Source: a bacterium (GTDB taxonomy: Bacteria; Patescibacteriota; Gracilibacteria; JAUYGZ01). From it: DNA of 64,000 bases. This document shows, one piece after another, positions 116-36,480 of the stretch; position 1 is the first letter of the stretch, and every line of letters starts with the position of its first letter. Under the pieces are notes generated by a model, which was not told the DNA's origin, searched no databases, and was given only the letters and a program-made list of their open reading frames with translations. The stretch spans positions 1-64,000 of the forward strand of contig JAUYGZ010000029.1 of the NCBI GenBank assembly GCA_030690415.1, given 5' to 3'. Both the position numbers and the translations under genes were made by a program.

Positions 116-179
116 ATTGTTGACTGCGATATAGGTAGTTCTGTGATGTCCGCCTTCTTCTTTCTTTTAAGGTGTCCCA

Positions 180-237
180 AAGTGGGGTTTTCATTTGGCG
201 AGCGGCAGAGGGCTGGGGTGAATGCCGTGAGCCACTT
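180..237 (+). repeat. Hairpin with a shortened version of the conserved loop
   Basis: Arms 196-207 and 223-234 pair as 4 bp, a 3-nt internal loop, then 5 bp. An alternative outer pairing AAGTGG/CCACTT (180-185/232-237) is possible. The loop starts with GAGGG and ends with GGGGTGAA, like the two hairpins at 4489-4603 but lacking about six central bases. It lies 60 bases upstream of the DUF3800 gene. The rest of 116-297 shows nothing recognisable. Confidence 0.55.
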
Positions 238-297
238 CAGTTTAATTTTATGAAATAGGTATTCTGGCTTATGCTGAAATAGATTTAATTAATCAGC

Positions 298-1038
298 TTG
301 AGCAAGACGTATCTTTTTCTCGATGAATCTGGAAAGCCTGAAGTATTTTCAGCACACGGAATGAACCTGGTTCAGTCTGGGCATGCTACTCAATTTTTGG
401 TCATTGCCTCGGTGAGAACCGAAGATCAGCTTGTTTTGCAACAGGCAGTAAATGATTTTAAGAGCTCACTTTTAAAAGACACTGAGCTGATTCCACTTTT
501 TTCGTCTGCTTATGTTCTAGATAGCTTCCACGCAACTAAAGATTTTCCACAAGTTCGACAAAAATTTTACAGCTTTATTGCAACTTTGGAGGTTAAGCTT
601 GACGTTATGGTGGTGGAAAAACTGAAGTGCTTTGAAACTCTTCAAAGAAATCCAGGTAGTATGTACGGTATTATGATAGGTCAACTTATCAAAAATCTTT
701 GTCATCAGACACCGGAAGTTGAAGTTATTTTTTCCCGTAAGGACAGTAAATTGAAGCTTCAGAAAGAGCTTGAAATTGAGGTCGATCGAATTAGACTGGA
801 ATATCTTCAAAAAAATCCGACACTGAATTCAAGTGTTACTTTATCGTATCATCATAATCCTCATTATTCACATGCAGGTCTTCAGGTAGCAGATTACGTC
901 GCTTACGCAGTTTTTCAGGTCTTTGAAAGACGAAATCATGAATTATATGATCTTATTTCCCATAAAATTGGGAGAATCCATGATATTTGTAACAAAAAAC
1001 TCTTTACCCGGAGCAACCCACTGCAGCTATCTTCCTAG
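298..1038 (+). CDS. DUF3800 domain protein
   Basis: The 246-residue protein has the DUF3800 hallmark near its N-terminus (YLFLDESG, residues 5-12) and the usual C-terminal LQVADYVAYAVFQ segment, whose Asp is thought to form part of an acidic centre with the DES motif. DUF3800 proteins are widespread, poorly characterised, and often found in mobile or defence regions, as here. Translation must start at TTG 298, because the next Met lies after the DESG motif. No good Shine-Dalgarno is visible. The gene is as AT-rich as the following defence genes and unlike the core genes after 9.4 kb. The family call is firm; the activity is unknown. Confidence 0.75.
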   Translation: MSKTYLFLDESGKPEVFSAHGMNLVQSGHATQFLVIASVRTEDQLVLQQAVNDFKSSLLKDTELIPLFSSAYVLDSFHATKDFPQVRQKFYSFIATLEVKLDVMVVEKLKCFETLQRNPGSMYGIMIGQLIKNLCHQTPEVEVIFSRKDSKLKLQKELEIEVDRIRLEYLQKNPTLNSSVTLSYHHNPHYSHAGLQVADYVAYAVFQVFERRNHELYDLISHKIGRIHDICNKKLFTRSNPLQLSS

Positions 1039-1047
1039 AAGGAGGAA

Positions 1048-1095
1048 GTGCGAACTTCGCACGTCTCACTCAGTGGTCTGCTCTCGATAAAGAGC
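1048..1095. repeat. Two small hairpins downstream of the DUF3800 gene
   Basis: GTGCGAA-C-TTCGCAC (1048-1062) is a near-perfect palindrome. GCTCT-cgataa-AGAGC (1080-1095) is a second small hairpin. Neither is followed by a clean T-run, so they are weak terminator candidates between the DUF3800 gene and the oppositely oriented SIR2 gene. Confidence 0.35.
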
Positions 1096-1145
1096 TTCAG
1101 GATGTATATAATATCAGATTCTTATTATATCGTCAATGCACATCC
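1095..1145. repeat. AT-rich palindromic boundary-like element
   Basis: GGATGT...ACATCC encloses ATAATAT...ATTATAT. The order CTTCAG, TATATA, TATTAT, CGTCAA recurs on the same strand at 9205-9236, next to the right inverted repeat of the five-gene cassette. This is short, AT-rich similarity read by eye, so chance is possible. Confidence 0.3.
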
Positions 1146-1237
1146 ATAATTACTATGGCGTATCAGGGAATGGATGAACAAGTAATTATGCTTGCAGATA
1201 AATCGAATCATGATCGAAATTTATTTAAAGAAACTTT

Positions 1238-2236
1238 TTATTCATTTTCAATAAGCGGTTTATACCATTTCCATAATTCTTCGAATGGTAATTCTTTCGG
1301 GATGTTGTTATCCCCTAGGAACTGACACATCATCAATTGCTGCCACATTGTTTCACATGTTCTGCGTGGGTGTTTAGCTGCCCATGATGAATAAAAATTC
1401 TTATAAACTATGTAGTGATGACTATGAATGAATGGTTTCCATGTCTCAGCTAATTCTTCTTCATCTTTTATATCTATGATCTCTATTTCTTCAAGTGATC
1501 TAGTTTCAGGCATTCCCCATCCTTCTTTCATTAATTCAACAGCTTCGATGTCAGTATTGGGTGCTCCGTAGCCGAAGATGGTAAGCATATATGCTTCGGC
1601 TAAATATAGCTTAAGAGTGTCCCACTCACCTTTAATCAATGGGCTATCGTTGTAGTTTTTATTTTTAATAGGAAAAAGAATTTTTGAATCAGTGTATGGT
1701 TTGGAGCATTTAATACATATGCCATTTTTTGCTCCTTTCATTCTACATTCTTCACAATAACCAATCGCAGTATTTCCATGTAAATAGACAATGTGGGGTA
1801 AATCTGCATATCTATGATTTCGAATACAGGCTAAAAAAAGTAAAGGATCCCAATTAAACGTTGCGATTAGATCCTTTTTCCTAAGTGATAAGGCTAGGTG
1901 ATCATAGATGGTTGGTTGTAATGGCAGTTCGAGAAGTTCAAAGTAATTGAATACTTTTTCCTCAATTAAATTCAATAGATCGCTGCTTGGATCTATATCG
2001 TAAATTTCACTAAATACACCTTCGAAGTTTTTATTTTTAAAATTCACATGGTTTTTTTCTAAAAGTTCCTCAAGACCAGTTCTTGAAATCAAGTCATCCA
2101 TTGTTGGTAATATTTTTCCATTTAAGTCCCCATTTGGGCAAGCAGCCTTACTTGCACCAGAACCAAGGATAACTACATGGGGTTTCCCATGTGAAACATC
2201 TCTAATCTCATCTTCTGTTGTGTATTGTTTGGTCAT
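1238..2236 (-). CDS. SIR2-like domain protein with a zinc ribbon (probable defence effector)
   Basis: The 332-residue protein has a SIR2-type Rossmann layout: a GSGAS nucleotide loop (residues 25-29), TFNWD (126-130), LHG with a candidate catalytic His (152-154), and FGYG before the last strand. Two CxxC pairs (C161/C164 and C174/C177) form the zinc ribbon expected of sirtuin-like folds. SIR2-family domains in bacterial defence systems such as Thoeris ThsA and DSR often deplete NAD+ on infection; that activity is inferred here. It begins 11 bases after the Mrr-type nuclease gene, so the two are very likely co-transcribed. The first ATG at 2236 fits the operon spacing. Confidence 0.7.
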   Translation of the reverse strand: MTKQYTTEDEIRDVSHGKPHVVILGSGASKAACPNGDLNGKILPTMDDLISRTGLEELLEKNHVNFKNKNFEGVFSEIYDIDPSSDLLNLIEEKVFNYFELLELPLQPTIYDHLALSLRKKDLIATFNWDPLLFLACIRNHRYADLPHIVYLHGNTAIGYCEECRMKGAKNGICIKCSKPYTDSKILFPIKNKNYNDSPLIKGEWDTLKLYLAEAYMLTIFGYGAPNTDIEAVELMKEGWGMPETRSLEEIEIIDIKDEEELAETWKPFIHSHHYIVYKNFYSSWAAKHPRRTCETMWQQLMMCQFLGDNNIPKELPFEELWKWYKPLIENE

Positions 2237-2247
2237 TATTATGTTTT

Positions 2248-4080
2248 CTATTTCTCATTAACTGCAATAATCTTTCTAGCTTCCACAAGATCAATTTTGA
2301 ATTTGTAGTTATGCTTCTCTAATAGGCCAAGTAACTGCGCTCCATCAAGCAGTGTGATTGGCTCGTTCTGGGCGAATTTATATGCGTCTCGTCCAAAGGT
2401 ACTCGTTGTGACCAAGATTCCTCGTGAAGCACCTTCTTTTCTTACAACAGCACAGAGGTCTCTTACAGCACTAACATCCACAACATTTGTGTATCGTTTT
2501 GCTTGAATGATATATTTCCCGCCTTTTATCGGATCAGGATTAAATACTATGGCATCTACCCCTCTATCACGGCTTGCCTGAGTCACTTTGACTTCTGCTC
2601 CTTCATTTTCGAATTCCTTTTCAAACAACTCCGCTATCAAGCTTTCAAAATCTTGCCAATCCATTGATGCTAAATTTGTATCGGAGCTAAGATGGCCGAT
2701 GACTTCTTTTGTATCAATAAACCTCTTATCCTCTTTGTTTAAATGGAGGACAGGTACAACAGGTACAATATCAATTAATGTGCCTGCAGATTTACCATTT
2801 AAATTCGTTAAAGCTGATAATGGGCTTATTTTTTCTAGATTTAAATTAATAATTTGCGATTTTTCGAGTGCTACGGTTGCAGTATAAGTTTTTTTGCTTA
2901 TTCCTGTATTTGGATCGATAAATTCTACCCAACCATTTAGCACAAGAAGTTTAATAACGTCTGATGTATCGTTTCTAAATATTTCAAATGCCAATCTCAG
3001 AATTATTGCTGGGTGAATTTTAGGCACGTTTTCTTTTGTTTCTTTTTGATTCAGCGGCTTATTTATAATGCCTTTTGATTGTTCTACTTTCTTAAATACT
3101 GGGCTGTGTATGATGTCAGGTAAGCTGATTTCTACAATTGCAATCGCCTGTTCCTCGTCATAATCAGCATCCCATTGTTTTGGGATGGAGTTAGGCAATT
3201 GAATGTCATTTACTATATAATTCAATCTTTGAATTACTTTTTCTTTAGAGTTTTTTTTGTATCCTTCTTTTATCTTTTTGAAATAGGTTTTGTTTATCTC
3301 ATTCTGTTTATGGTCATTTTCTAATTCTTCGTTGTACTCTTCTATTTCAATGTTAAGTTCATTTATTATTTTGAGTTTCAGTTCATTTTCTTGAATTTTA
3401 GGAAATTTTTCGTAGCTTCCCTCATAAGAAATCAATTGATTCTCACTTTTGAACCATGGAGTTTGATTTGGAGTCAAAATCTTTTCTATGTCATCCAGGC
3501 AAATGTCGCCCTTTTCGGTTTTTTTATGTATCTCTTGTTTTTTAAACGGATCATCCTTCGACTTTCTAAGATTTCTTAATTTTATGCGGATATTTTCGAT
3601 TTCTCTTTGCCTTCTCTCTGTTTTTTGTTGTTTTTCTAAGCCTGAGAGCCGTTTCTTTTCTTCAGCATTTTTAAGCTCATTTTCCCTATCTAGAAAGGCT
3701 TTTCTTATTTCTTCAGATAATTTAACCCACTCCAATGGGGCTGCGTATTTCCAATCTTTAAGATACTTGGAACCTGGATGAATTCCATACATGCCCTCTG
3801 CGAGGCATATTTCATTTATACAGTCTCTTATTTTGTTATCTTCCTTATAATAAAAGCTCCCATATGTTTCTGATCGTTTGGCATACTTATCAATAATGTC
3901 TTTATTTCGATCAAAAATATTTTTTGTTTTATCAATAATCCTGCCCGGAAATTTTTTTGCCCTTTCGGAATCGAATGAATTTCTTTTACTATTTGAAGCT
4001 GAAATTGAAGAAATACCCTCCGAAATTGCGGAAATGATCCAAATAATAATTACTACGGCAATTAATAAAACGTACCCCAA
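2248..4080 (-). CDS. Membrane-anchored Mrr-type restriction endonuclease with coiled coil
   Basis: Of 610 residues, about 1-19 form one transmembrane helix. Residues ~110-330 are highly charged Lys/Glu-rich coiled coil, and ~470-600 are an Mrr-like PD-(D/E)xK nuclease: E479, GVD ending at D509, and the Q526-A-K528 core of the IIQAKRY strand, followed by STFGRDA. Mrr enzymes cut foreign or modified DNA; Mrr domains fused to a membrane helix occur in several poorly studied defence systems. The only plausible start is TTG 4080, since no ATG precedes the hydrophobic helix. The SIR2-like gene follows after 11 bases. A promoter and a hairpin repeat lie upstream. Nuclease assignment is strong; target and partner role are inferred. 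Confidence 0.75.
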   Translation of the reverse strand: MGYVLLIAVVIIIWIISAISEGISSISASNSKRNSFDSERAKKFPGRIIDKTKNIFDRNKDIIDKYAKRSETYGSFYYKEDNKIRDCINEICLAEGMYGIHPGSKYLKDWKYAAPLEWVKLSEEIRKAFLDRENELKNAEEKKRLSGLEKQQKTERRQREIENIRIKLRNLRKSKDDPFKKQEIHKKTEKGDICLDDIEKILTPNQTPWFKSENQLISYEGSYEKFPKIQENELKLKIINELNIEIEEYNEELENDHKQNEINKTYFKKIKEGYKKNSKEKVIQRLNYIVNDIQLPNSIPKQWDADYDEEQAIAIVEISLPDIIHSPVFKKVEQSKGIINKPLNQKETKENVPKIHPAIILRLAFEIFRNDTSDVIKLLVLNGWVEFIDPNTGISKKTYTATVALEKSQIINLNLEKISPLSALTNLNGKSAGTLIDIVPVVPVLHLNKEDKRFIDTKEVIGHLSSDTNLASMDWQDFESLIAELFEKEFENEGAEVKVTQASRDRGVDAIVFNPDPIKGGKYIIQAKRYTNVVDVSAVRDLCAVVRKEGASRGILVTTSTFGRDAYKFAQNEPITLLDGAQLLGLLEKHNYKFKIDLVEARKIIAVNEK

Positions 4081-4106
4081 TATAGTTTTTTAAAGTCTTT
4101 GAAAAA

Positions 4107-4136
4107 ATAGTATCCGAATTCTATCAACATAAGCAA
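4107..4136 (-). promoter_or_regulatory. Candidate promoter of the Mrr-SIR2 operon
   Basis: On the minus strand TTGCTT (4131-4136) and TACTAT (4107-4112) are separated by 18 bases, placing the start about 20 bases before the TTG start codon of the Mrr gene. Confidence 0.4.
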
Positions 4137-4172
4137 TTGATTGATTTAATCTTAATCCTATTTTAATTAAAG

Positions 4173-4222
4173 TTCACTCGCGTTTTCGGGGAGCGAGTGA
4201 AATCCACTATCTCCCTCTATAA
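4173..4222 (-). repeat. Hairpin leader repeat upstream of the Mrr-SIR2 operon
   Basis: TTCACTCGC (4173-4181) and GCGAGTGAA (4193-4201) form a perfect 9-bp stem. On the minus strand it is preceded by TTTATAGAGGG and a GATA-type spacer. The same order, TATAGAGGGG then a spacer then a hairpin closing with GAAAAC, occurs upstream of the methyltransferase operon at 9060-9131 in the same orientation relative to the genes. It therefore looks like a shared leader element of both defence operons. Confidence 0.5.
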
Positions 4223-4287
4223 ACAAGGAAAACCCCTCTTTGGATACCTTAATTTGACCCCTACTCCTAAAGAAAGAAGAAGAGAGA

Positions 4288-4432
4288 TGTCATCACATCG
4301 CGTTCCTGCGTATGCGATGTTTGCCAGTGGTATAATTGCACGAAGTGCTTACCACTGGCAAATATGGGTGGAGGCTTCCGGAGGTACGGAGCAAGCCGTA
4401 ACCGCATACGCAGTGTTATATGATGTACATGT
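4288..4432. repeat. Large three-armed palindrome between the two defence operons
   Basis: An 11-bp perfect outer stem, CTGCGTATGCG (4306-4316) with CGCATACGCAG (4403-4413), is extended by imperfect ATGT/CATCA pairing. It encloses two hairpins. Arm one is TTTGCCAGTGGTA (4320-4332) with TACCACTGGCAAA (4350-4362), containing an inner GCAC-gaa-GTGC. Arm two is GGCTTCCG with CGG-agc-AAGCC (about 4372-4396). The whole would fold as a cloverleaf-like structure in single-stranded DNA or RNA. With the adjoining repeats it fills the gene-free stretch 4081-4611. An open frame through it is not a credible gene. Confidence 0.7.
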
Positions 4433-4486
4433 TTTCCTTTAATTTCTGAAAGAAATTGCTCTTAAAAAGAATCTGATTTTGTTTTT
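4415..4486 (+). repeat. Left inverted repeat of the five-gene cassette
   Basis: Three parts: a 26-nt block beginning GTTATATGA (4415-4440), a hairpin AATTTC-tgaaa-GAAATT (4441-4457), and a 29-nt block beginning GCTCTTAAAAAGAATC (4458-4486). The same parts occur in inverted orientation at 9135-9205 with 24/26 and 28/29 matches, while the central hairpin has a different sequence that still pairs. Confidence 0.85.
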
Positions 4487-4488
4487 CC

Positions 4489-4543
4489 GTTTTGGGTGGC
4501 GGGCAGAGGGGAATTAAAGGGGTGAATGCCCGCCACCCAAAAC
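4489..4543. repeat. Hairpin 1 with conserved 21-nt loop
   Basis: A perfect 17-bp stem (4489-4505 with 4527-4543; GTTTTGGGTGGC start) encloses a 21-nt loop at 4506-4526 that begins GAGGGGAATT and ends AAAGGGGTGAA. The loop is identical to that of the next hairpin, although the stems differ. Confidence 0.85.
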
Positions 4544-4560
4544 ACCTATTTCTGGTTTGA

Positions 4561-4603
4561 GGGAGGGGCAAGAGGGGAATTAAAGGGGTGAATTGCCCCG
4601 CCC
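4561..4603. repeat. Hairpin 2 with the same 21-nt loop and a different stem
   Basis: GGGAGGGGCAA (4561-4571) pairs with TTGCCCCGCCC (4593-4603) with one mismatch. Loop 4572-4592 is base-for-base the same as in hairpin 1. It ends only eight bases before the last gene of the cassette, so on the minus strand it could also serve as that operon's 3' structure. Confidence 0.85.
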
Positions 4604-4611
4604 GAAAACAA

Positions 4612-5154
4612 TCAATCTTTGATTTCTATTGGTTTTTTGCATTCTTTTGCAAACTCGTAAATATTCTTTTCAAAGTGATGATTTCCTACAATCTTTGCTA
4701 ATTGCACTTGCTGCTTATCGTAATAAAACTGTCTTTCATGATCATTTGACATGGAAACTTTAGGCACGGGAACAAAATATCTATGCCCATCTAACGAAAC
4801 AAACAATTCTTTATCCAGTAGCATCGAGTTTGCTTCCAGTCTCACATAATACGAGGCGTTGTTGGTTTTGTCTGGATATAAGTCGTTATTTATCCATTCT
4901 TCTTGAAAATTTTCGACAAGTTCCTTATCCCAATCAATGATAATTTGGAAATTTGGGTGCTTTTTGTGTCGGTAGAATGACAAGTGATTATCGATTCCTT
5001 GAAACTTTTCCCAGTCTTCAGGCTTTTGAAGATACTTTTTGAAAAGCGTTATTGGATTGATGAACGATATGTAAGCAAAAAATGTTCCGACAAGCGTTGC
5101 GACTAAACCCAGAATTCCAATTATAAATCCTAAAATTGTAATAATGTCTTCCAT
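4612..5154 (-). CDS. Unrecognised protein with one N-terminal membrane helix
   Basis: I do not recognise this 180-residue protein. Residues ~4-32 form a hydrophobic helix, followed by a charged, presumably cytosolic domain rich in Tyr, His and acidic residues. There is no cysteine pattern or known catalytic motif. It is the last gene of the five-gene minus-strand operon, 39 bases after the polytopic membrane gene, and hairpin 2 follows at its 3' end. A role as an accessory membrane component of the restriction-like cassette is inferred from position only. Confidence 0.6.
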   Translation of the reverse strand: MEDIITILGFIIGILGLVATLVGTFFAYISFINPITLFKKYLQKPEDWEKFQGIDNHLSFYRHKKHPNFQIIIDWDKELVENFQEEWINNDLYPDKTNNASYYVRLEANSMLLDKELFVSLDGHRYFVPVPKVSMSNDHERQFYYDKQQVQLAKIVGNHHFEKNIYEFAKECKKPIEIKD

Positions 5155-5193
5155 AATTAACTGATAGTAGTAAGTACCCTGCCCAAAAATATA

Positions 5194-6066
5194 CTATTTC
5201 TCGAAATATTTCTTGATAATAGCATTTACATCTTTTTTGGCACTAATTTTCATTAAATCCTGTGTACTTTCTTTTGCAAACCTATTTAGTTTCGGTAAAT
5301 TCAAATGATAAGCTCGTATAATTTTACGTTTCGTAAATTTAATTAAGGCGGGGTCGTTTTTGTTGAAAATACTTAGACGAACAAATAGGGTTTCGTATGC
5401 CATTATTAGAGCGAAAAAATAAACAAATGGAATGAACGCAACTGTTAATAATGGTGGTAAAATAAAAGTCTTCAAATTTTGGGAAGTCATAATATTTTGA
5501 AAATCGCCAAAAACTTTACCAATTGCAAAAACGATAAAGAAAATACCAATCAAAGATAAAATGAAATCAAATATTTTTTTTACTGGCAAGTATTCTTTTT
5601 TTAGTCCAGAAACAGCACTCATTGCTCCGATAAAAACCAAAATGGGAACTAAAATTATTTCTGTTATTAAATTAAAAGTGTAGAGCGTTAAGATGAATTC
5701 AAGGACTAAAATAACTTTGAGATTATCTTTCAAAATCTTAATGAAAAACCCATTTTCTTGATTTACTTTGTTAGTGTTCATTAGCAGCACAAAAGCAACG
5801 GCTAAAAACCAGTAAATTGTATCTTTTAAAAGTATCCATTCCCAGATTCCAATTTTGGCCAATAATAAAACTATCAATCCAGTATAAATAATCGCGGCAA
5901 TAATTACTGATAGTATTTTTATTTGGAAAAGAGATTTTAGAATACCAAACAATGAATTTCTGATGTTTTTTTGAGAAAATGCCCAAAGTATAAAAATAAA
6001 CAGCCAACAAATAATTGCTATTTCTCTTGCGTTGAATTGTTGAAAAAAGGTAATAAGTTTATCCAT
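5194..6066 (-). CDS. Unrecognised polytopic membrane protein
   Basis: The 290-residue protein has about seven or eight hydrophobic segments between residues 12 and 235, then a basic C-terminal tail of ~55 residues (TKRKIIRAYHLNLPK...). No transporter or enzyme signature is visible. Its start overlaps the stop of the cysteine-rich gene by 8 bases, so translation is probably coupled. Codon use and AT content match the rest of the cassette. A membrane effector (pore or anchor) in a defence system is possible but is inference from neighbours. Confidence 0.6.
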   Translation of the reverse strand: MDKLITFFQQFNAREIAIICWLFIFILWAFSQKNIRNSLFGILKSLFQIKILSVIIAAIIYTGLIVLLLAKIGIWEWILLKDTIYWFLAVAFVLLMNTNKVNQENGFFIKILKDNLKVILVLEFILTLYTFNLITEIILVPILVFIGAMSAVSGLKKEYLPVKKIFDFILSLIGIFFIVFAIGKVFGDFQNIMTSQNLKTFILPPLLTVAFIPFVYFFALIMAYETLFVRLSIFNKNDPALIKFTKRKIIRAYHLNLPKLNRFAKESTQDLMKISAKKDVNAIIKKYFEK

Positions 6067-6682
6067 TTTTTTTCTCGATAGTTTTTATTTTCTCATCTAA
6101 TAATTTTGAAATGGAGGATATATAACTGCGCACTTCAACATATTTACCGCATGTGCAATCGTCATACTGAATAAAAGCGGTAGTTTTTCTGTAATTCATT
6201 TTCCCTATTTTTGGCTTTTTCAAGTTTGCATCTGCACAACTTTGGCAGAGCATATCGGTTCTAACAAAAACATAGATTTTGAAATCGCTATCATTATTAA
6301 TGCGTCTCGTGTCCATATATACATATTCAGATCCATGCAAAAAAGTTGATACGATATTGGCCAAGAGTTCTTCTTTCTCTTCACCATTAAAAAAAGCATG
6401 CTCGTCTGCATGTAAATAGCTTGATGTGTCTAACGTTTTTTCATTTTTGGGTATTACAACACTTACTTTGTATTGTGGATTCTTTTTAGAATTTTTAACA
6501 AGCATTTTCCTTGCAATTGCAGATGTTGTGTCTAATAGGGGGTAAATTCTATAAACATCTTCAATATCTTCTGGATTGCTCCAGTTTTTTTCTAATTTTG
6601 CCCATAACTCATCAAGTTCTTTTAATTCAACTTCAAGCTTTTCTAGTGAACAATTCCCATATTTACACCATGTTCTTGTCAT
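6059..6682 (-). CDS. Unrecognised cysteine-containing protein
   Basis: I do not recognise this 207-residue soluble protein. It carries possible metal-binding cysteines: C6/C11 near the N-terminus, a CQSC pair in the middle of the second half, and CTC near residue 180. A helical segment (residues ~12-35) follows the first pair. It lies 8 bases after the DUF262-HNH gene and overlaps the next membrane gene, so it belongs to the same operon. DNA or ligand sensing is possible but unsupported by a named family. Confidence 0.6.
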   Translation of the reverse strand: MTRTWCKYGNCSLEKLEVELKELDELWAKLEKNWSNPEDIEDVYRIYPLLDTTSAIARKMLVKNSKKNPQYKVSVVIPKNEKTLDTSSYLHADEHAFFNGEEKEELLANIVSTFLHGSEYVYMDTRRINNDSDFKIYVFVRTDMLCQSCADANLKKPKIGKMNYRKTTAFIQYDDCTCGKYVEVRSYISSISKLLDEKIKTIEKKNG

Positions 6683-6690
6683 AATATTTT

Positions 6691-7860
6691 CTATCGATTA
6701 CCTTTTGCCCGATTATGTGTCTTACACAACATCTCGCAGTTTTTAATATCACTCTTACCACCTTTGCTCCACGCCGAAACATGGTCGGCGTCCATATCGC
6801 TCAAACTCCAAATTTTTGCTTTGTTTGCGTCGTGTCCGATAGCACAATGTGAGCAATTTGATTTACCTTTTTTCTCCGCCTCAGCGGTTTGTGTTGCGTA
6901 AACTGCTTTTTTCGTTGCTTCATCAAAAACTCGGACTTCAAGCAATTTTGTATCAACAGAACCACCGAGAATGTACTCAAAAATACCTTTGCGATTTTTT
7001 ATATACGGATCAGCATAGAGTTTGTGAACCTCGGCAGATACCTTAGCAGGATTGTATGCCTTTTTATGGTATTCTTCATAGAGTCGTCCCCATTCAAGCC
7101 CGCGCATTTCACTTTCAACATCGATAAACACACTGGAAACCCAATCAATTACGCTATTAAAATAGATTTTTAGCTCTTTGATATTATCGTCGTAGCGATG
7201 ACGACTCATGTAGTCACCGATGTTTCCCTTACTTACCCAATCAAAAGCACGCTCTAAAAATTCTTGCCTGTTTGCACTACCTTTTACATACGCACTCCAT
7301 TTTTGGATATTGGCATTTTGACTATTACTAAACTCAGCTTTGCCGAGCGTAACAAATGGGCCGGAATATACGGCGTTGAGTAGCTCCTGATCATTCAGAG
7401 GAACACCAGCAATATTGATTGTTTTGAACCACTCTTTTATTTCACTTTCTGTTCCTTCACATTCGTAAATAAGCAGTTTCGTTTCTAAAATCTGGGTTTG
7501 CTTGTCTTTTGCCATACCACCAAAATATTGCTCCATGCTATTTTCGTCTTTGATAGCAAATTTATCAGTTACAAATCGTCCAAGACTGGTAATACGTTGC
7601 TGTCCGTCTAAAACTTCAAGATTGCTGTCGCTTACTCTATTAAAATAAATCAAACCTATTGGATAACCCTTCAAGACTGATGCGATGACGGCCATTTCTT
7701 TCTTTCCGCCGTCAGATGCATAAATATAGTTGCGCTGATATTCCGGCTGAATAGTAAGATTGCCAGACAAACCGAATAGTCCTTTGCCTTCAAGTTCGTT
7801 GTAGACGAATCCTTCGCAAATATCTTTGACAGTGATGGTTGTTTTTAAAATTGTTTTCAT
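6691..7860 (-). CDS. DUF262-HNH nuclease (GmrSD/ParB-N-like plus HNH)
   Basis: Start taken at ATG 7860 (389 residues), directly after the methyltransferase stop; an upstream ATG at 7905 would add 15 residues overlapping that gene. The N-terminal DUF262 domain shows [10 protein letters not shown] and the signature DGQQR (residues 85-89). The C-terminus (336-389) is an HNH nuclease: CxxC, D359-H360, N374 and H382-N383, with a further Cys pair, giving a zinc-bound beta-beta-alpha-metal fold. DUF262 domains are NTP-dependent in GmrSD enzymes, which cut modified phage DNA. Next to an EcoRI-type methylase it is probably the nuclease half of a restriction-modification-like system. Confidence 0.8.
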
Positions 7861-7861
7861 A

Positions 7862-8974
7862 TTATTTATGTTTAATAATGATTCTTCTATAAACAGGCTT
7901 TCCATTTAAATCAGGGCCTCTGCCTCTCCAGTTAGGATATTGCAACCTATGATCATCCATTCCTAAAATCTCAAATTGTTCAGGGTTGTATTTATCCAAA
8001 AAACTAATCGGTACGCCCATTGTACCGGGGTAATCGCTAGGGATGGCATCAGTAAACGGCACTTCTATGGCATCATAATTGTCGTATACACCGTACGTTT
8101 TTTTGCCTTTAATTTCTTTGTGTTTGCTATATTTTAGATTGTCTTCCATAGTCATTAGAGGCAATGGCTGATGACGTCGCCCATGATCAATATTCGTAAG
8201 CCACAAACAATTATTAGTGGCAACAATTCTGTCTCCATTTTCATCTATTCTAGCTTCTGTTCCGTACAATTCGTAGGATTGAGGCACAATAAAGCCAGAA
8301 ATCCATCTTCCCATTCCGTTACCAAGCCATGCTTCATTATTTTTAATTTTTTGAAATATTTCTTTGTATGTTATGCAATTAATATTGCCAATGATCAAAA
8401 ACTTTTTTTTGTAATCAAAAAGTTGCTTCACATATTCTCGGAACAAACTAAACGGTGGATTTGTTACGACGACATCAGACTGTTTAAGTAACTCTATGCA
8501 TTCATCACTTCGAAAATCGCCATCACCCTCAAGCGGTGCCCATTCGTTGTTTTTGTTTGCCTTTAGCTGTTTGGCAACATCTTTTAAATTAAACTCGCCA
8601 TCACCGTCTATATCTTTTACTTCATTGATAATAAACTTGTTGGCTGTTAGTTTTGGACGACCTTTTGATTCGGCAAGAGTCTTATCATCGCCAAATAATG
8701 CCAATTGCGTGTTAGCAACAGGTGATGGTTTGTAGCTCGTGGTAATAAGCTGCTTCAGTCCAAGTTTGTTGAAATTGAGTACAAAATAGCGAAAAAAATT
8801 GCTCTCGAAAGGATCGTCGCAATTGCAATATACTACTTTAGCTCGAAACGTATTAGGGTTGTAGTCTAAATACTTCTCAATTTCTTTCTGAATATCGATG
8901 TATTGAGTATAAAACTCATCATTCTTTGCCCGTTTCGCATTTGTAAGATTTTTAGCTGATGCTTCTCTAGCCAT
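7862..8974 (-). CDS. EcoRI-family adenine-specific DNA methyltransferase
   Basis: The 370-residue protein matches the EcoRI methylase family: NDEFYTQ (18-24), CNCDDP (50-55), and the N6-adenine catalytic motif NPPF (172-175) followed by SLFREY. It transfers a methyl group from AdoMet to adenine in a recognition site, protecting host DNA. It is the first gene of the minus-strand operon and ends one base before the start of the DUF262-HNH gene. The partner is not an EcoRI-like endonuclease, so the pairing is unusual. The segment 110-160, with a DGDGEF stretch, is lineage-specific. Confidence 0.88.
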
Positions 8975-8999
8975 AAATTTATTTCAAATAAGTGATCCT

Positions 9000-9028
9000 A
9001 TTGTATTCGTTTCCCCCTAATAAATAAA
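9000..9028 (-). promoter_or_regulatory. Candidate promoter of the methyltransferase operon
   Basis: On the minus strand TACAAT (9000-9005) is preceded, 17 bases upstream, by a weak TTTATT box (9023-9028). The start would fall about 20 bases before the ATG at 8974. The upstream box lies inside the hairpin leader repeat array. Confidence 0.4.
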
Positions 9029-9131
9029 CTGTTTCCGGAGCGAAGCGGAGGAAACACCGCTTATTCCCCTTATAAAATAAATGTTTTCGTAGCGGAGCGA
9101 AGAAAACTCCATATTTCCCCTCTATAAATAA
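9007..9131 (-). repeat. Tandem hairpin leader repeats upstream of the methyltransferase operon
   Basis: Read on the minus strand, three AGGGG-A/T-rich units alternate with two hairpins: GAAAAC/GTTTTC arms at about 9083-9107 and GGAAAC/GTTTCC arms at 9031-9055. Both loops are 13 nt of the CGCTCCGC type. The unit resembles the element before the Mrr operon. With the right inverted repeat it accounts for most of 8975-9210. Confidence 0.6.
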
Positions 9132-9134
9132 AAG

Positions 9135-9205
9135 AAAAACAAAATCGGATTCTTTTTAAGAGCTGGGGCGGTAGCCCCAAAAGGAAAACATGTATTTCAT
9201 ATAAC
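9135..9205 (-). repeat. Right inverted repeat of the five-gene cassette
   Basis: Inverted counterpart of 4415-4486: a 29-nt block (9135-9163), a hairpin TGGGGC-ggta-GCCCCA (9164-9179), and a 26-nt block (9180-9205) ending at the GTTATATGA complement. Both outer blocks are conserved, while the hairpin stem is GC-rich here and AT-rich on the left. The remainder up to 9445 is AT-rich, without a gene I can support. Confidence 0.85.
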
Positions 9206-9445
9206 TTCAGTATATACGAAATATTATTCCGTCAACACTCAGTATTGGCATGTTATCTGAACTTGGATTACAAGTGACACGAATTGAGTTTATTGATAAA
9301 TAGTATGAATAAGCATGAAGCGTTGCACGTTTTTCGAGGGGGATTTTTGCTGGCTCAAAAAACCCAACTACGGTCACCATGTATACGGAAGATGATGTCC
9401 AGTCGGCCCCTTTCTTCAAGGGTAATGCGTGAAACACTGCCCTTG

Positions 9446-14195: not shown

Positions 14196-15179
14196 TTATT
14201 CGACCGGATACCCCTCTTTTTCTACCGAAATGAAGGCACTTCTCCAGCCGGTGTCCGGAGTTCGGATTTGATAGATGCCAGGGGTTGGGAAATGAATCCC
14301 GACCTTTGCCTGGGATTTTAGCACTTCATCTTGTTTGAGCTGTGGTATCTCGTACCGGATAGTTTCTTTGGTCAGGTTTTGGAGAGTAAAGGGCCGATCG
14401 ATTTCCACCCGATTCCATCCGGCTGAAAGAGCATCAGGTCCGAGATAGAGCGTATTGGCAGCGCGTGGCGCTGTTATCGGTTCCCAGGCAAATGCGAAGA
14501 AGCTGATCAGGATTGCCATACCAAAAGTCATTCCAAGAATGCCAAGAGGTTTCCTGGTGTTGAGAAGCCATTGGAGGCGTTGTTTGGGTTTTTCCGCGAG
14601 CCAACCGAGTGGGTAGCCAAAAAAGAAATGGGCTCCGAGGCCGATCCAAAAAGCCGTGAGGTTTGTCCTGAGGGCGTAGACTTCTCCAAAAGATGTCATG
14701 TAGGCCAGTAATTCAAGTACTATTCCCCAGGCGACGGCCCACCATCTATTTTTTCCAAGGGCGATGAGGGTGTAGATCCAGGCGAATGTGATGCCATTTG
14801 AAAAATGATAGAAAAACCCCGCAAGGTCGCTGGCGAGGGTGCTGTAGGGGGCGTCCAAAAGGTACATTCCGTAGGATCGAATAGGGGTGAGGGGGTTGAG
14901 GCCCAGGAAGTGGAGGGGGAGGCGGATCAGGTCATATCCGAGGACTCCCAGAATACCACCCCAAAAACCTGTTTTAAGGGCCAATGTGAGTCGATGGTAG
15001 TTTTTCTTTTTGCCGAGTATCCAGAGGCCCCCGATGATGATCAGAGAAGGAGACAGTATGAACAGTCCTGCTTCATGCATCGGCATGATCCGGTACAGAA
15101 ATGCCAGGAGGCAGAAAATAGAAGAGAAGGAGAGGATCCAGATGATGCTGGAAATGATTTTTTCGGGACTAGTGGTCAT
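14196..15179 (-). CDS. Polytopic membrane protein, module gene A (copy 1)
   Basis: The 327-residue protein has about eight membrane helices in the first ~240 residues, then an extracytoplasmic beta-rich C-terminal domain (~250-327) ending GIYQIRTPDTGWRSAFISVE. It is closely paralogous, over its full length, to the protein encoded at 34926-35909. It is the last gene of a four-gene minus-strand module and overlaps the stop of gene B by 11 bases. The family is unknown to me. The constant presence of A and of the N-terminal part of C in both modules suggests they form the fixed machinery of the system. Confidence 0.75.
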   Translation of the reverse strand: MTTSPEKIISSIIWILSFSSIFCLLAFLYRIMPMHEAGLFILSPSLIIIGGLWILGKKKNYHRLTLALKTGFWGGILGVLGYDLIRLPLHFLGLNPLTPIRSYGMYLLDAPYSTLASDLAGFFYHFSNGITFAWIYTLIALGKNRWWAVAWGIVLELLAYMTSFGEVYALRTNLTAFWIGLGAHFFFGYPLGWLAEKPKQRLQWLLNTRKPLGILGMTFGMAILISFFAFAWEPITAPRAANTLYLGPDALSAGWNRVEIDRPFTLQNLTKETIRYEIPQLKQDEVLKSQAKVGIHFPTPGIYQIRTPDTGWRSAFISVEKEGYPVE

Positions 15180-15840
15180 TGAGGTGTTTTTTAAAGTATC
15201 TATACTTGATGACTAGTAACTCAGTTACCATGATAAGCATGGCAAGCACTGTCCATATTCCAAAAATCATTTGAGCTTCCTGAAAGGTTAATTCTGAGTA
15301 CCTGGATATATAATTGGGAATGACGAATACCACGAGGATAATTGAGAGTGCCACTTTTATGTGGGAATAGTTTCCTGTCTGCATGCCGAAGTAGTTTTGC
15401 ATCATTTTTTTGCCAGTGAGCTGTGATGCTTTCTTCTTCATATGAGGGTAGCTGATGACTCCTATCCCCAGGCATGCTCCCAAAAAAACGAAGTAATAGA
15501 GGATTATATTCAGGGATTGGTGTGCATAGACAATTAGCGATAAAATCGCTTCTTGCCATAAGAAGAAGGCTAAAAACATCTCCATGGCATGAGCAGGAAT
15601 CCTGTTGAGCCTTGAAAGTGGAAGCGCTTTGAGAATGAGACTCATGGCCAATAAAGATCCTAAGAAAATTATTCTCGTCGAATGGAATGTCGTATCATAA
15701 TCTGGAGAGATGAGATAAAAATTACCAGTTGCCATCAGAAATACTCCATATGAAAAAATAACAAACAACCAAGAATATTTGTTTAACTCTAGGAGTTGGT
15801 CAGTGTACTCGACTAATTCATTTTTAAGCTTTTCAGTCAT
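15169..15840 (-). CDS. Polytopic membrane protein, module gene B (copy 1, variable)
   Basis: The 223-residue protein has ~6-7 membrane helices with short loops and a basic cytosolic stretch (PHMKKKASQLTGKKMMQ, ~130-146). It occupies the same position as the 186-residue protein at 35911-36471, but the two share no clear sequence similarity beyond being membrane proteins. Variation in step with the C-terminal domain of neighbouring gene C would fit a cognate partner, for example immunity or a dedicated membrane factor. That is inference. It lies 21 bases after gene C. Confidence 0.65.
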   Translation of the reverse strand: MTEKLKNELVEYTDQLLELNKYSWLFVIFSYGVFLMATGNFYLISPDYDTTFHSTRIIFLGSLLAMSLILKALPLSRLNRIPAHAMEMFLAFFLWQEAILSLIVYAHQSLNIILYYFVFLGACLGIGVISYPHMKKKASQLTGKKMMQNYFGMQTGNYSHIKVALSIILVVFVIPNYISRYSELTFQEAQMIFGIWTVLAMLIMVTELLVIKYRYFKKHLNDH

Positions 15841-15861
15841 GATGAGCTATGAGGTGGTGTA

Positions 15862-17757
15862 TTATCCCTGTTCCCACTTGAGGTCCATTTGGGATTCTCG
15901 ATATCCTTTCATGAGGAGATCGATTTGTTTTTGGATATGAATTTCCACAGCGATGTCTTCCTCTACGCTGCGTTTGCTCGTTTCTGTTTGGATCGCTTTT
16001 ATCAGTTTATCGGGATTGGTGACGATGTCAGAAACTTTTTGATTGTAGTCACTGGCCGAAGCATGGTGTCCTCTGTAGATAGTATCGATGTTTTTTTGCA
16101 GACCTGATGGTTGGTAGCTCACACCAGCTCCAAGTTTTTCTGCTTGTTTCTGGAATGTTTCAGTCGCATTGGCAATTTCCTTTAGGATGCTATCTCCTAA
16201 TTCACTTTTCTTAATTCCGTCAAACGCAACATCTGCTAATACTCCTGCAGTAAATCCTGCTATGGTACCCGCTCCTGGGAACGTGATAGTACCAACAAAT
16301 GCTCCTGCAAATGCTGCTGTGGTGGCGCTTCCTGCTCCAGCAAAAACATCGTATGAGAGATTGGCAATAAACTGGGAATCAGTTCCTTCGAATTGGCCTG
16401 TAATTTGGTCTATCACATTGAGTCCGGCATTGAATTTTGCATTGAAAAGAGCATTTCCAGGTAGCTCTTTGAGATATTTTGCTTTTGTGATCGATTGATA
16501 GGAGGTTTTGGATAGCCATCCTCCTTTTTTCAGGATTGTCCCTTCAAATATCTTCTTGAAAGTCTCTACATTGCCTGTCATTCGAATATTTTTTGCGTAT
16601 TTTTCAAACTTGAACTGGCTTAACTCAAAAACCTCTTTCACTGCTTTCCCAAACTCATAGCCTGTTTTTGTCATATTAGGACATTGTAGAAAGCCGCTCG
16701 TGGGAAGTAAGCATGCTTCGATTTCTTTCAGGTATTTGTTGGCGCTTTCAGATGCCGCAAGCACTTTGGGGTCTAACTCAAACTTTATCTCTTTTGTTTT
16801 TCCGATCTGTTTCTTCAATTCCTCTCCAAATTTCAGCGCCGTATCAGTTGCCGGCGGGGCTAATGCCGTTCCAAAGGAAGGCCAAAGTCCGAACTGGATG
16901 GTTTTGAAAGCCCCATCGCTGTTGAGCCAGCCGGCCAGAGTTGATCCGGCTTCATCCCAGCCGCCGTCGTCGGCAAAGGCCAGGTGCTTTTTCCAGAAAA
17001 AATATCCGGCCATGATCAGCATACCGGTGAGGATGGCTGATTCATCGATTTTTTTTCTCTTGAAAAGGAGGAATACGGCGATGATGGCAAAGGCAATGGC
17101 CAGATAGAGGTCTTGCTCGATCAAGAATCCGAGAAGAAATCCGAAAGATGCTCCCAGGAATACCAATGAAGTGATGTGAAGACTTTTGGGGAGATCGAGA
17201 TGCCGGTCAAGTTTTCCCTTGCTGAGGCTATTGATGAGCAGGTAAAAAAACATGATCAGGCTGGGAAGCAGTCCCGAACCAATGGAAACCATGAACCAAA
17301 GGGTCAGGGCAAGGTCGGCGATGCTGAAGAGATGGCTGCTGAGGAGAATGGTGAGAGATGCGCTGAAGAGCAGAAGTATATTGGAAAGTACAATGCCCGT
17401 TTGTTCCACTGATCTTGACCAACTCAGGGGGGTTGAGAGGATGCCGACAAGAGTTTTGGCCAATCCTTTTTCGATGATGGATCGTGCCAATAAGAAGACT
17501 ATTCCCGAGAGGATAGTCCAGGAGATGGTGGCTGAGGCCCAGCTCTTCACGGTCACCAGATATCCATCCCATGGGCCACTTTTCCATCCTTCATTGAGAT
17601 AGACGAGGAAAAAGGTGTGCAGGATAAGTACTCCCAATAACATTCCCAGTGACCACCAGACCTGGTTTTTGAAGCTTGTTTTGAGGCTCTGCCAGAGTAT
17701 CAAAAAGAGTTGTTTGAGGGGAATAATCGTTTTGGACTCAGAAGCAGAAACAGACAT
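15862..17757 (-). CDS. Large membrane protein, module gene C (copy 1) with a unique C-terminal domain
   Basis: Of 631 residues, ~30-260 contain 7-8 membrane helices, ending in a conserved FADDGGWDEAGS...FGLWPS...GEELKK segment (~261-316). This part is strongly similar to the protein at 36481-38097. After residue ~316 the two proteins are unrelated. Here the C-terminal half is soluble-looking helix, then a Gly/Ala-rich hydrophobic run (~475-515, AFAGAFVGTITFPGAG...), then a charged helical tail. A conserved carrier plus a swapped C-terminal domain is typical of polymorphic effector proteins. The Gly/Ala-rich segment could insert into membranes, but no known toxin family is recognised. Confidence 0.75.
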   Translation of the reverse strand: MSVSASESKTIIPLKQLFLILWQSLKTSFKNQVWWSLGMLLGVLILHTFFLVYLNEGWKSGPWDGYLVTVKSWASATISWTILSGIVFLLARSIIEKGLAKTLVGILSTPLSWSRSVEQTGIVLSNILLLFSASLTILLSSHLFSIADLALTLWFMVSIGSGLLPSLIMFFYLLINSLSKGKLDRHLDLPKSLHITSLVFLGASFGFLLGFLIEQDLYLAIAFAIIAVFLLFKRKKIDESAILTGMLIMAGYFFWKKHLAFADDGGWDEAGSTLAGWLNSDGAFKTIQFGLWPSFGTALAPPATDTALKFGEELKKQIGKTKEIKFELDPKVLAASESANKYLKEIEACLLPTSGFLQCPNMTKTGYEFGKAVKEVFELSQFKFEKYAKNIRMTGNVETFKKIFEGTILKKGGWLSKTSYQSITKAKYLKELPGNALFNAKFNAGLNVIDQITGQFEGTDSQFIANLSYDVFAGAGSATTAAFAGAFVGTITFPGAGTIAGFTAGVLADVAFDGIKKSELGDSILKEIANATETFQKQAEKLGAGVSYQPSGLQKNIDTIYRGHHASASDYNQKVSDIVTNPDKLIKAIQTETSKRSVEEDIAVEIHIQKQIDLLMKGYRESQMDLKWEQG

Positions 17758-34925: not shown

Positions 34926-35909
34926 TTATTTAATCGGATACCCACCCTCTTCTATAGAAATGAAAGCACTTCTCCAGGTGTTGTCAGGAGTTCTGATCTG
35001 GTAGATGCCCGGGTCTGGGAATTGAATTTCTGCGGATGATGTTGCTTTGAGCGTTTCTTCCAGATTGAGTCGGAGAATCTCATATCGAATATCTTTCTGA
35101 GTTGTGTTTTGAAGCGTGAACGATTGATCGATTTCGACACGATTCCATCCTGCCGAAAGGGCATGAGGTCCGAGGTAGAGTGTTTGAGGTGTATGAAGGG
35201 ATGATATAGGCTCCCAGGCAAGAGCGAAGAAACTGATGAGTATTCCGATTCCAAAGATCATCCCTATAATGCCGAGTGGTTTTTTGATAGTGAGCAATTT
35301 TTGAAGGCGGAGTGTTGGTTTCTCTGCCAGCCATCCCAGTGGGTATCCGAAGAAAACATGCGCTCCGAGTCCAATTCCGAAGGCGGTGAGGTTCGTCCTC
35401 AAACCATAGACTTCTCCGAAAGATGTCGCATAGGCGAGTAATTCCAGCCCTATACCCCAAGCGATCGCCCACCATCTGTTTTTTCCGAGAGCGATGAGGG
35501 TATAGATCCAGGCGAAGGTGATGCCATTGGAAAAATGGTACAAGAAGCCCGCAAGATCGCTGATCAAGGTGCTATATGGAGCGTTCAGGATATACATCCC
35601 ATAAGATCGGATCGGAGTAAGGGGATTGAGCCCCAGGAAGTGAAGGGGGAGTCGAATGAGGTCATAGCCGAGGACTCCCAGAATACCACCCCAGAATCCT
35701 GTTTTCAGGGCCAATGTGAGTCGATGGTAGTTTTTCTTTTGGGCAACGATCCAAAGGATACCAATGAGGATCAAAGAGGGGGCTAATATGAAGAGTCCTG
35801 CTTCATGCATCGGCATGATCCGGTACAGAAATGCCAGGAGGCAGAAAATAGAAGAGAAGGAGAGGATCCAGATGATGCTGGAAATGAATTTTTCGGGTTT
35901 CGAGATCAT
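34926..35909 (-). CDS. Polytopic membrane protein, module gene A (copy 2)
   Basis: The 327-residue full-length paralogue of 14196-15179 has the same membrane-helix layout and the same C-terminal domain ending (RTPDNTWRSAFISIE). DNA identity is uneven: a 94-base tract (35794-35887) is base-for-base identical to 15064-15157, pointing to recent duplication or gene conversion. It is the last gene of the second module, 1 base after gene B2. Confidence 0.75.
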   Translation of the reverse strand: MISKPEKFISSIIWILSFSSIFCLLAFLYRIMPMHEAGLFILAPSLILIGILWIVAQKKNYHRLTLALKTGFWGGILGVLGYDLIRLPLHFLGLNPLTPIRSYGMYILNAPYSTLISDLAGFLYHFSNGITFAWIYTLIALGKNRWWAIAWGIGLELLAYATSFGEVYGLRTNLTAFGIGLGAHVFFGYPLGWLAEKPTLRLQKLLTIKKPLGIIGMIFGIGILISFFALAWEPISSLHTPQTLYLGPHALSAGWNRVEIDQSFTLQNTTQKDIRYEILRLNLEETLKATSSAEIQFPDPGIYQIRTPDNTWRSAFISIEEGGYPIK

Positions 35910-35910
35910 A

Positions 35911-36471
35911 CTAACAACCCTTGAGATTCCACAGACTAAAAAATATCAGCATTGAGATATTGGTGAGATAGATGATGCTCAGATAGCAGAATATATCCAG
36001 AATCATCAGAGCTTTTTTTTGCTGATGGAATAATATGAAGCCGATGATATAGAGCATGAATAGCCACCAAGGAGAGAACCAGAATGCTTCCTCGAGTGGG
36101 GTAATCATGAAGTATTGCGTCATAAAACAGTTTTCAAGCCCTGACCCAGGATAGACCCCAGTGATGTATTTATAGACCAGAATGTCAAAAACGAGGGCAA
36201 AGAATGCGAGATGTCGGAAGATGTTGAAAGACTTGTAACCGTATTGGTGTGAGAGCAGTGAGAAGCCGGTAAATTTTTTCCAACTGAGAAGGAAGAGTAA
36301 GGCAAAGATCGGAATGAGGATAAACATGGATCCGCTGGAATCCAAAAAAATGTATTCTCCTTTAATGACCGATATCTGGTAGATAAAAAATCCCAGTAAA
36401 AGAGATAGTACGCCGAGGGTTAACCAGAGCATTTCTGCGTAACTGATTTCGGTATTTGTATCGCTCTTCAT
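35911..36471 (-). CDS. Polytopic membrane protein, module gene B (copy 2, variable)
   Basis: The 186-residue protein has ~5-6 membrane helices and short loops. It holds the position of the 223-residue protein at 15169-15840 but shows no convincing similarity to it. It lies 9 bases after gene C2. Two cysteines (LENCFMT and the C-terminal Cys) are its only notable features. A cognate role for the swapped C-terminal domain of C2 is possible, not shown. Confidence 0.6.
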   Translation of the reverse strand: MKSDTNTEISYAEMLWLTLGVLSLLLGFFIYQISVIKGEYIFLDSSGSMFILIPIFALLFLLSWKKFTGFSLLSHQYGYKSFNIFRHLAFFALVFDILVYKYITGVYPGSGLENCFMTQYFMITPLEEAFWFSPWWLFMLYIIGFILFHQQKKALMILDIFCYLSIIYLTNISMLIFFSLWNLKGC

Positions 36472-36480
36472 TGCAAATGG

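Follow-up and report, generated by a model that had tools for sequence, protein, structure and literature searches.

The window analyzed here is a 64,000-nucleotide stretch of contig C30 (JAUYGZ010000029.1), part of a 1.45-Mb Gracilibacteria genome assembled into 30 contigs (GCA_030690415.1), and its left portion carries five open reading frames, all on the minus strand, enclosed by inverted ends, as the first-pass annotation had recognized. Named relatives, together with genomes of its class that read TGA as a residue, indicate that the source is probably a Patescibacterium of the Peregrinibacteria/Gracilibacteria type. Our analysis, which is sequence based throughout and draws mostly on draft assemblies, suggests that an integron-like system has this unit as one of its gene cassettes, integrons being the systems with which bacteria collect genes. 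Read along the minus strand, the array consists of an attI-like site (9300 to 9206), cassette 1 (9204 to 4301), cassette 2 (4300 to 138) and an IS110-type element (1 to 137). The first gene of cassette 1 (7862 to 8974, minus strand, as are the four that follow) encodes an adenine methyltransferase of the EcoRI-methylase family (Pfam EcoRI_methylase, E value of 4e-127; PADLOC MTase_II, 5e-115). The second (6691 to 7905) encodes a protein with GmrSD_N (DUF262) and HNH domains (Pfam, 2e-20 and 2e-6; PADLOC REase_II, 1e-81), which is probably the restriction enzyme. A 207-amino-acid protein (6059 to 6682) and a 290-amino-acid protein that looks membrane spanning (5194 to 6066) have no family in Pfam or PADLOC, and a 180-amino-acid protein (4612 to 5154) has a weak match to PADLOC PDC-S50 (3e-11). 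Judged from these family matches, the cargo is a type II restriction-modification system accompanied by three proteins without a clear family.

The inverted blocks described at the two ends are real, with 24 of 26 positions matching between 4415 to 4440 and 9180 to 9205 and 29 of 30 between 4458 to 4487 and 9134 to 9163; in the orientation of the unit, the left block forms the 3' terminus and the right block the 5' terminus. The 5' terminal arm (9134 to 9205, minus strand) comprises the core GTTATATGAAATACATGTTTTCCTTT, a hairpin and GCTCTTAAAAAGAATCCGATTTTGTTTTTC (92 bits; E value of 8e-13 in the genome), and the 3' terminal arm (4415 to 4487, plus strand) is its inverted copy, with TGATGT where 5' arms have TGA(A/C)AT. 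The end-to-end match of the two arms had an E value of about 3e-9 in a whole-genome search, and nothing further matching both ends was found in the window. The hairpins between the blocks differ as had been reported: positions 9164 to 9179 (minus strand) read TGGGGC-TACC-GCCCCA, a hairpin predicted from covariation and folding, and positions 4441 to 4457 (plus strand) read AATTTCTGAAAGAAATT, in which AATTTC and GAAATT enclose TGAAA, a hairpin predicted from sequence and covariation. Across 16 ends from several genomes, double-sided changes were observed at six of six pairs of this hairpin, and its covariation score was 0.514 compared to 0.195 ± 0.045 for shuffles (none of 500 as high), with all slid registers scoring worse. 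The proposal of a selected structure was thus upheld by this covariation, by the pair changes in a second hairpin near the 3' end and by the folds of rejoined ends, both described below.

The right end (approximately 9075 to 9205) has matches of 73 to 93% identity in many genomes from its class, and in most cases the match extends to 9205, where it usually ends. Upstream of these matches the sequence varies: some genomes have an attI-like site by an integrase gene, others a long hairpin whose last letters are GGAACG|TT. Read in the direction of the cassette, an attI or attC site followed by a cassette of the form TTxxxx...xxxxAAC with its own attC amounts to the layout of an integron. In the window, the attI-like site (9206 to 9300, minus strand) ends in TTGACGGAATAATATTTCGTATATACTGAAG|TT, carries TTGAC and TATACT-like boxes at a 15-bp spacing and matches the DNA adjoining the integrase gene in contig C6 of the same genome and in the sister genome G001. 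The unit had been thought to stop at position 4415; its inverted ends stood, but the unit also takes in an attC-like site and terminates near 4301. Cassette comparison and the attC model place cassette 1 at 4301 to 9204 (minus strand; 4,904 bp), a stretch that opens with the TT of the R' core and closes with the G belonging to the attC of the cassette. This attC-like site (4293 to 4423, minus strand; 130 nt) has the R'' box ATATAAC, an 11-bp L stem (CTGCGTATGCG/CGCATACGCAG) and a variable apex, and its last 8 nt are part of the next cassette. It scored 110 bits with attC model R2 (E value of 4e-27), the site itself being in the training set. The earlier suggestion of a site-specific recombination target is favored by this anatomy of attI-like and attC-like sites with a G|TT boundary.

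The earlier suggestion of a mobile unit also held, given that such ends also enclose different sets of genes, on contig C7 of the same genome and in other genera and families, where the DNA identity of the ends reaches up to 93%. The blocks therefore occur elsewhere, also without this operon, and they are not a duplicated terminator. The cargo between ends of the same kind ranges over type II and type III restriction-modification, Shedu-like, HNH and DsrE-like genes. The cargo on C7 includes a PLD-helicase, an Eco57I methylase and a Shedu-like gene; in other genomes we found a type III restriction-modification system (G097), an Eco57I methylase with an OLD-like TOPRIM protein (G079) and an HNH protein (G052). 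Cargo unrelated to defence, encoding what appear from sequence to be DsrE-like and S-layer-like proteins, is present as well.

We aligned 19 attC sites, in which the AAC/GTT core is near-invariant and R and L boxes are present. The 11-bp L stem shows double-sided changes at 8 of 11 pairs, with 95% of cells paired and a covariation score of 0.427 versus 0.153 ± 0.019. The stem is free of bulges and extrahelical bases in 53 of the 56 detected sites, a count carrying some bias toward bulge-free sites because the model was built from gapless stems. The central spacer is asymmetric (1 nt versus 4 nt) in 40 of 56, and the apex is variable. A simple hairpin-based attC finder performed at background (186 hits compared to 209 in reversed sequence), and only chained, repeated sites were used from its output. 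Sites found with the attC model form arrays: 12 attC in one orientation lie beside a divergent integrase gene on contig C6 of G052, and six lie beside an integrase gene in the Peregrinibacteria genome nzgw393 (L096, JAHFJU010000010). The integrase gene adjoins the array in these two, in L093 and in others, whereas the window retains only a probable relic; attI is conserved next to the integrase gene in contig C6 of the window genome and in G001, and also at the window flank. Among 60 genomes, 13 have both integrase and attC and 35 have neither (Fisher P = 6e-5), and co-occurrence was similar for terminal arms with integrase and for the 3' hairpin with attC (P = 5e-5 each), the counted genomes not being independent in any of these tests.

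Two further observations concern the sites themselves. Nearly identical attC sites (CTGCGTATGCG..TTTGCCAGTGGTA) occur in G000, G008, G021, G044 and G097, which belong to five genera in different families, suggesting recent cassette exchange. In the Wolfebacteria chromosome (L093, 7706 to 9890), a cassette of approximately 190 bp with no evident gene is present in three copies within the array.

The statement that no enzyme encoded here explains the ends holds for the window only; elsewhere in the genome, a matching integrase is encoded on contig C6 (G000:C6:39432-40235). This tyrosine recombinase of 274 amino acids lies beside its own copy of attI. With profile A1, a single clear copy was detected in each of 19 of 60 relatives, this gene among them, and the TIGR02249 profile recovers the family at 187 to 214 bits, below its cutoff of 265. 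The best Protein Data Bank match is the Vibrio cholerae integron integrase 2a3v, both by sequence (E value of 6e-45 with the G008 member as query) and by predicted fold (template modeling score up to 0.75 for the G000 member, whose model has a predicted local distance difference test score of 86.5). Compared to IntI2 and the Tenderia IntI, the family lacks the additional IntI-specific domain (I2), approximately 45 amino acids being absent between the catalytic lysine and HxLRH; the lysine-to-histidine spacing is 58 to 59 in most measured relatives and 54 to 67 across all. In a tree of 46 rows, ten members from the class and those of other Patescibacteria fall on one side of a branch with 100/97 support, apart from IntI and far from the Xer proteins of the same genomes, which carry a separate, distant XerC/D-like gene. 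H14 (L184), an IntI1-like Escherichia coli protein, was omitted from the tree because part of its extra domain is absent, in what looked like a deletion. By these sequence comparisons the family is common in Patescibacteria, with members in Wolfebacteria (CP011209, a closed chromosome), Moranbacteria, Magasanikbacteria, Paceibacterota and Peregrinibacteria. One family gene, G042:C13:24239-25012, has eight in-frame TGA codons, and its genome apparently translates TGA as a residue; its contig also carries an attC.

The window array seems to have lost its own integrase, because the flank at 9203 to 9351 aligns with attI and the first approximately 50 bp of the integrase gene of G001 (71% identity; E value of 3e-12) and with the C6 site at 77%. 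The probable relic of the integrase 5' end spans 9301 to 9351 (plus strand). It lies by mutY, and it is drawn from the DNA alignment to G001, its protein-level match not being significant. In G001, aroC lies directly before mutY with no array between.

We consider it very probable that the window unit is a restriction-system gene cassette of a Patescibacteria integron-like system, whose inverted blocks are the prolonged arms of its own attC. We infer that the 274-amino-acid integrase would join the attC of circular cassettes to attI or to other attC sites at the G|TT core, which would leave the cassettes aligned in one orientation. The arms would pair once the ends have been joined in a circle or while the cassette is looped out in single-stranded form, the arm hairpins would form a four-way junction outside the attC stem, and the long arms might stabilize folding or synapsis of this putative single-stranded substrate, chiefly for long multi-gene cassettes. 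In the window cassette, the arms of attC, usually 8 to 9 bp, are prolonged approximately 75 nt into the cassette. When the 5' arm and the inverted 3' arm of each of 46 cassettes were compared, 15 pairs were long (score of at least 60), against a median of 14 and a 95% point of 41 for mixed pairs; the arms of many other cassettes are 20 to 35 nt, and the remainder have just the 8- to 9-nt box. Long-arm cassettes are also longer (median of 1,639 versus 624 bp; P = 0.001). The inspected long-type arms keep the polarity mark, TGA(A/C)AT in 5' arms and TGATGT in 3' arms, with few exceptions.

When the rejoined ends of ten cassettes with little sequence in common were folded as single-stranded DNA, all took up one architecture: the attC stem, the R box, a two-nucleotide asymmetry, a stem, a hairpin on each arm (in most cassettes) and an outer stem. 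The hairpin is predicted at the same place on each arm, so that in most of the ten the modeled structure is a four-way junction. In all ten, the fold energy with the cassette's own arm was clearly below that with the arm shuffled, usually by more than 8 standard deviations (−105.6 versus −61.1 ± 2.1 for the window cassette). The G031 cassette (L193) has almost no sequence in common with the others, yet folds similarly, indicating that pairing is what is kept. Just before the 3' arm lies the 3' hairpin mentioned above, in which the loop (AGAGGGG..GGGGTGAA) is conserved while the stem changes freely (double-sided changes at 12 of 15 pairs). We counted 45 occurrences in 17 of 99 genomes, most of them 60 to 200 bp from attC. 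The hairpin is also present once in Wolfebacteria. In the window it is present at 4489 to 4543 (plus strand; E value of 6e-18), and a second copy with an identical loop and another stem is present at 4555 to 4609 (plus strand; 6e-16).

Several points weigh against this interpretation. The array beside mutY has no integrase, which may leave this copy unable to move in cis. In several cassettes the arms measure only 8 to 9 bp, indicating that long arms are not required, and two G079 cassettes have mismatched arm types. Cassette 2 starts at G|CG instead of G|TT. On its left the array runs to the contig end, making the empty-site comparison one-sided, and the attC and arm models were partly trained on sequences that they find again.

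The alternative that survives best, which we regard as unlikely, places the arms in RNA: the 5' and 3' untranslated regions of the transcript would pair, the hairpins would protect or regulate the mRNA, and recombination would need the ordinary attC core only. The arms are probably transcribed with the operon, folding does not separate RNA from DNA, and the 5' leader sequence AGAGGGGAA is complementary to UUCCCCUCU, part of the conserved loop of the 3' hairpin, which may serve as a binding site or in RNA pairing. However, arm pairing has the recombination core as its exact starting point and joins the R' and R'' boxes without interruption, short-arm cassettes included, and it is also found in the G044 cassette, whose longest open frame is reversed. 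A transposon with terminal inverted repeats (of the DDE type or resembling a miniature inverted-repeat transposable element) inserted by chance beside attC would account for inverted ends around cargo in several families. We rejected this very improbable reading given that no target-site duplication was found between 4405 to 4414 and 9206 to 9215 and no transposase was found in the cargo of the cassettes examined; moreover, the unit ends exactly at the attI/attC core on one side and runs into its own attC on the other, and the arms differ between cassettes while matching within each. The hairpins near the operon ends could also be read as a duplicated terminator or processing element, a highly improbable explanation that we rejected given that no U-run follows them and that they belong to inverted matched pairs tied to attC, with different hairpins within a pair.

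We give roughly even chances to a broader proposal: a widespread second branch of integrons without the I2 domain or extrahelical bases, in which the long cruciform ends of Patescibacteria cassettes would serve as structural recombination sites and whole restriction and other defence systems would be traded between families. Chained attC-like sites lie by domain-less integrases in Arundinibacter roseus, Flavobacterium difficile, F. cellulosilyticum, Fusibacter and Saccharibacillus kuerlensis. These Firmicutes and Bacteroidota arrays (L111, 11338 to 12706; L119, 12667 to 17207; L123, 11425 to 16373; L125, 11111 to 14205; L128, 11356 to 14395) have short arms, long arms being seen in Patescibacteria only. 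IntegronFinder 2.0 listed one complete integron in Firmicutes (Limnochorda) and, for Bacteroidetes proper, Salinibacter (PMC9024848). We found no description of integrons in the candidate phyla radiation, Patescibacteria, Peregrinibacteria or Gracilibacteria in the literature, preprints and most subscription papers being outside the scope of that search.

Like class 1 integrons, those of Vibrio and other chromosomes, and archaeal integrons (PMC9668308), the present system has a divergent tyrosine recombinase, attI and tandem one-way cassettes, and its attC shares the R and L boxes, unpaired central spacer, variable apex and G|TT core. Unlike them, it has an integrase without the extra domain, attC without extrahelical L-stem bases, arms extended up to approximately 100 nt with hairpins, and large multi-gene cassettes. 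Extrahelical bases were reported as common to all known attC by Bouvier et al. (PMC2727003), and Escudero et al. stated in 2016 that the I2 domain recognizes them and described the co-origin of this domain and attC as a chicken-and-egg paradox (PMC4792948); that both are absent here is mutually consistent. According to Smyshlyaev et al., conservation of the integrase insertion is incomplete in their integron-like subgroup, which means that domain-less members have been seen before, yet the insertion is stated there to be essential for function (PMC8138268). The "Cand" Xer-like subgroup of that study, which likewise contains simple Xer-related tyrosine recombinases from candidate phyla, is possibly made up of the same proteins; no cassette system was given for it, and our genomes carry a separate XerC/D-like gene. 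Integration of CTX-phi by XerCD (PMC4792948) resembles the present case in its folded single-stranded site and an enzyme without I2, and differs in lacking arrays and a dedicated integrase.

An integrase without a part thought essential in integrons bears on integron evolution, and domain-less integrases with attC sites lacking flipped bases make the chicken-and-egg paradox testable. If the second branch is real, it would represent, in living bacteria, the intermediate regarded as missing between Xer-type recombination and classical integrons. Such integrons would escape surveys that make the IntI-specific domain a requirement (as described in PMC9668308). For Patescibacteria, which are tiny, uncultivated and small in genome, the system would offer a route for acquiring complete defence systems and passing them on, and it would add a folded DNA site of a new type that contains a four-way junction.

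The remaining features of the array are minor. The leader of cassette 1 contains a hairpin at 9083 to 9107 (minus strand; GTTTTC..GAAAAC, preceded by AGAGGGGAAATA) that recurs in other cassettes, a second hairpin seen in the sequence at 9031 to 9055 (minus strand; GTTTCC..GGAAAC) and a putative −10-like box, GAATACAAT, at 9000 to 9008 (minus strand) that is common to several cassettes. Cassette 2 (138 to 4300, minus strand) has type C ends, encodes an Mrr-type nuclease (Mrr_cat), a 332-amino-acid protein and an inverted DUF3800 gene, and has a 3' hairpin at 191 to 238 (plus strand; model R3, E value of 2e-9). Its attC is interrupted by the IS110-type element at 1 to 137, in which the C terminus of a transposase can be read. 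Contigs C30, C7 and C8 all begin in such an element (window, 1 to 137; L019, 1 to 209; L021, 1 to 170), and in C30 and C7 the end of the element abuts the R'' core of a cassette, as though attC were its target. It is presumably comparable to the IS1111-attC elements and, in this comparison, interrupts the integron-like system rather than being the system itself. No tRNA or tmRNA target was found in the window, nor any Rfam family at gathering scores. Farther along, positions 14196 to 17109 and 34926 to 37455 are two diverged copies (70 to 79%) of a multi-kilobase stretch, and positions 50144 to 50271 hold a run of 8-bp repeats, GAAACGAG.

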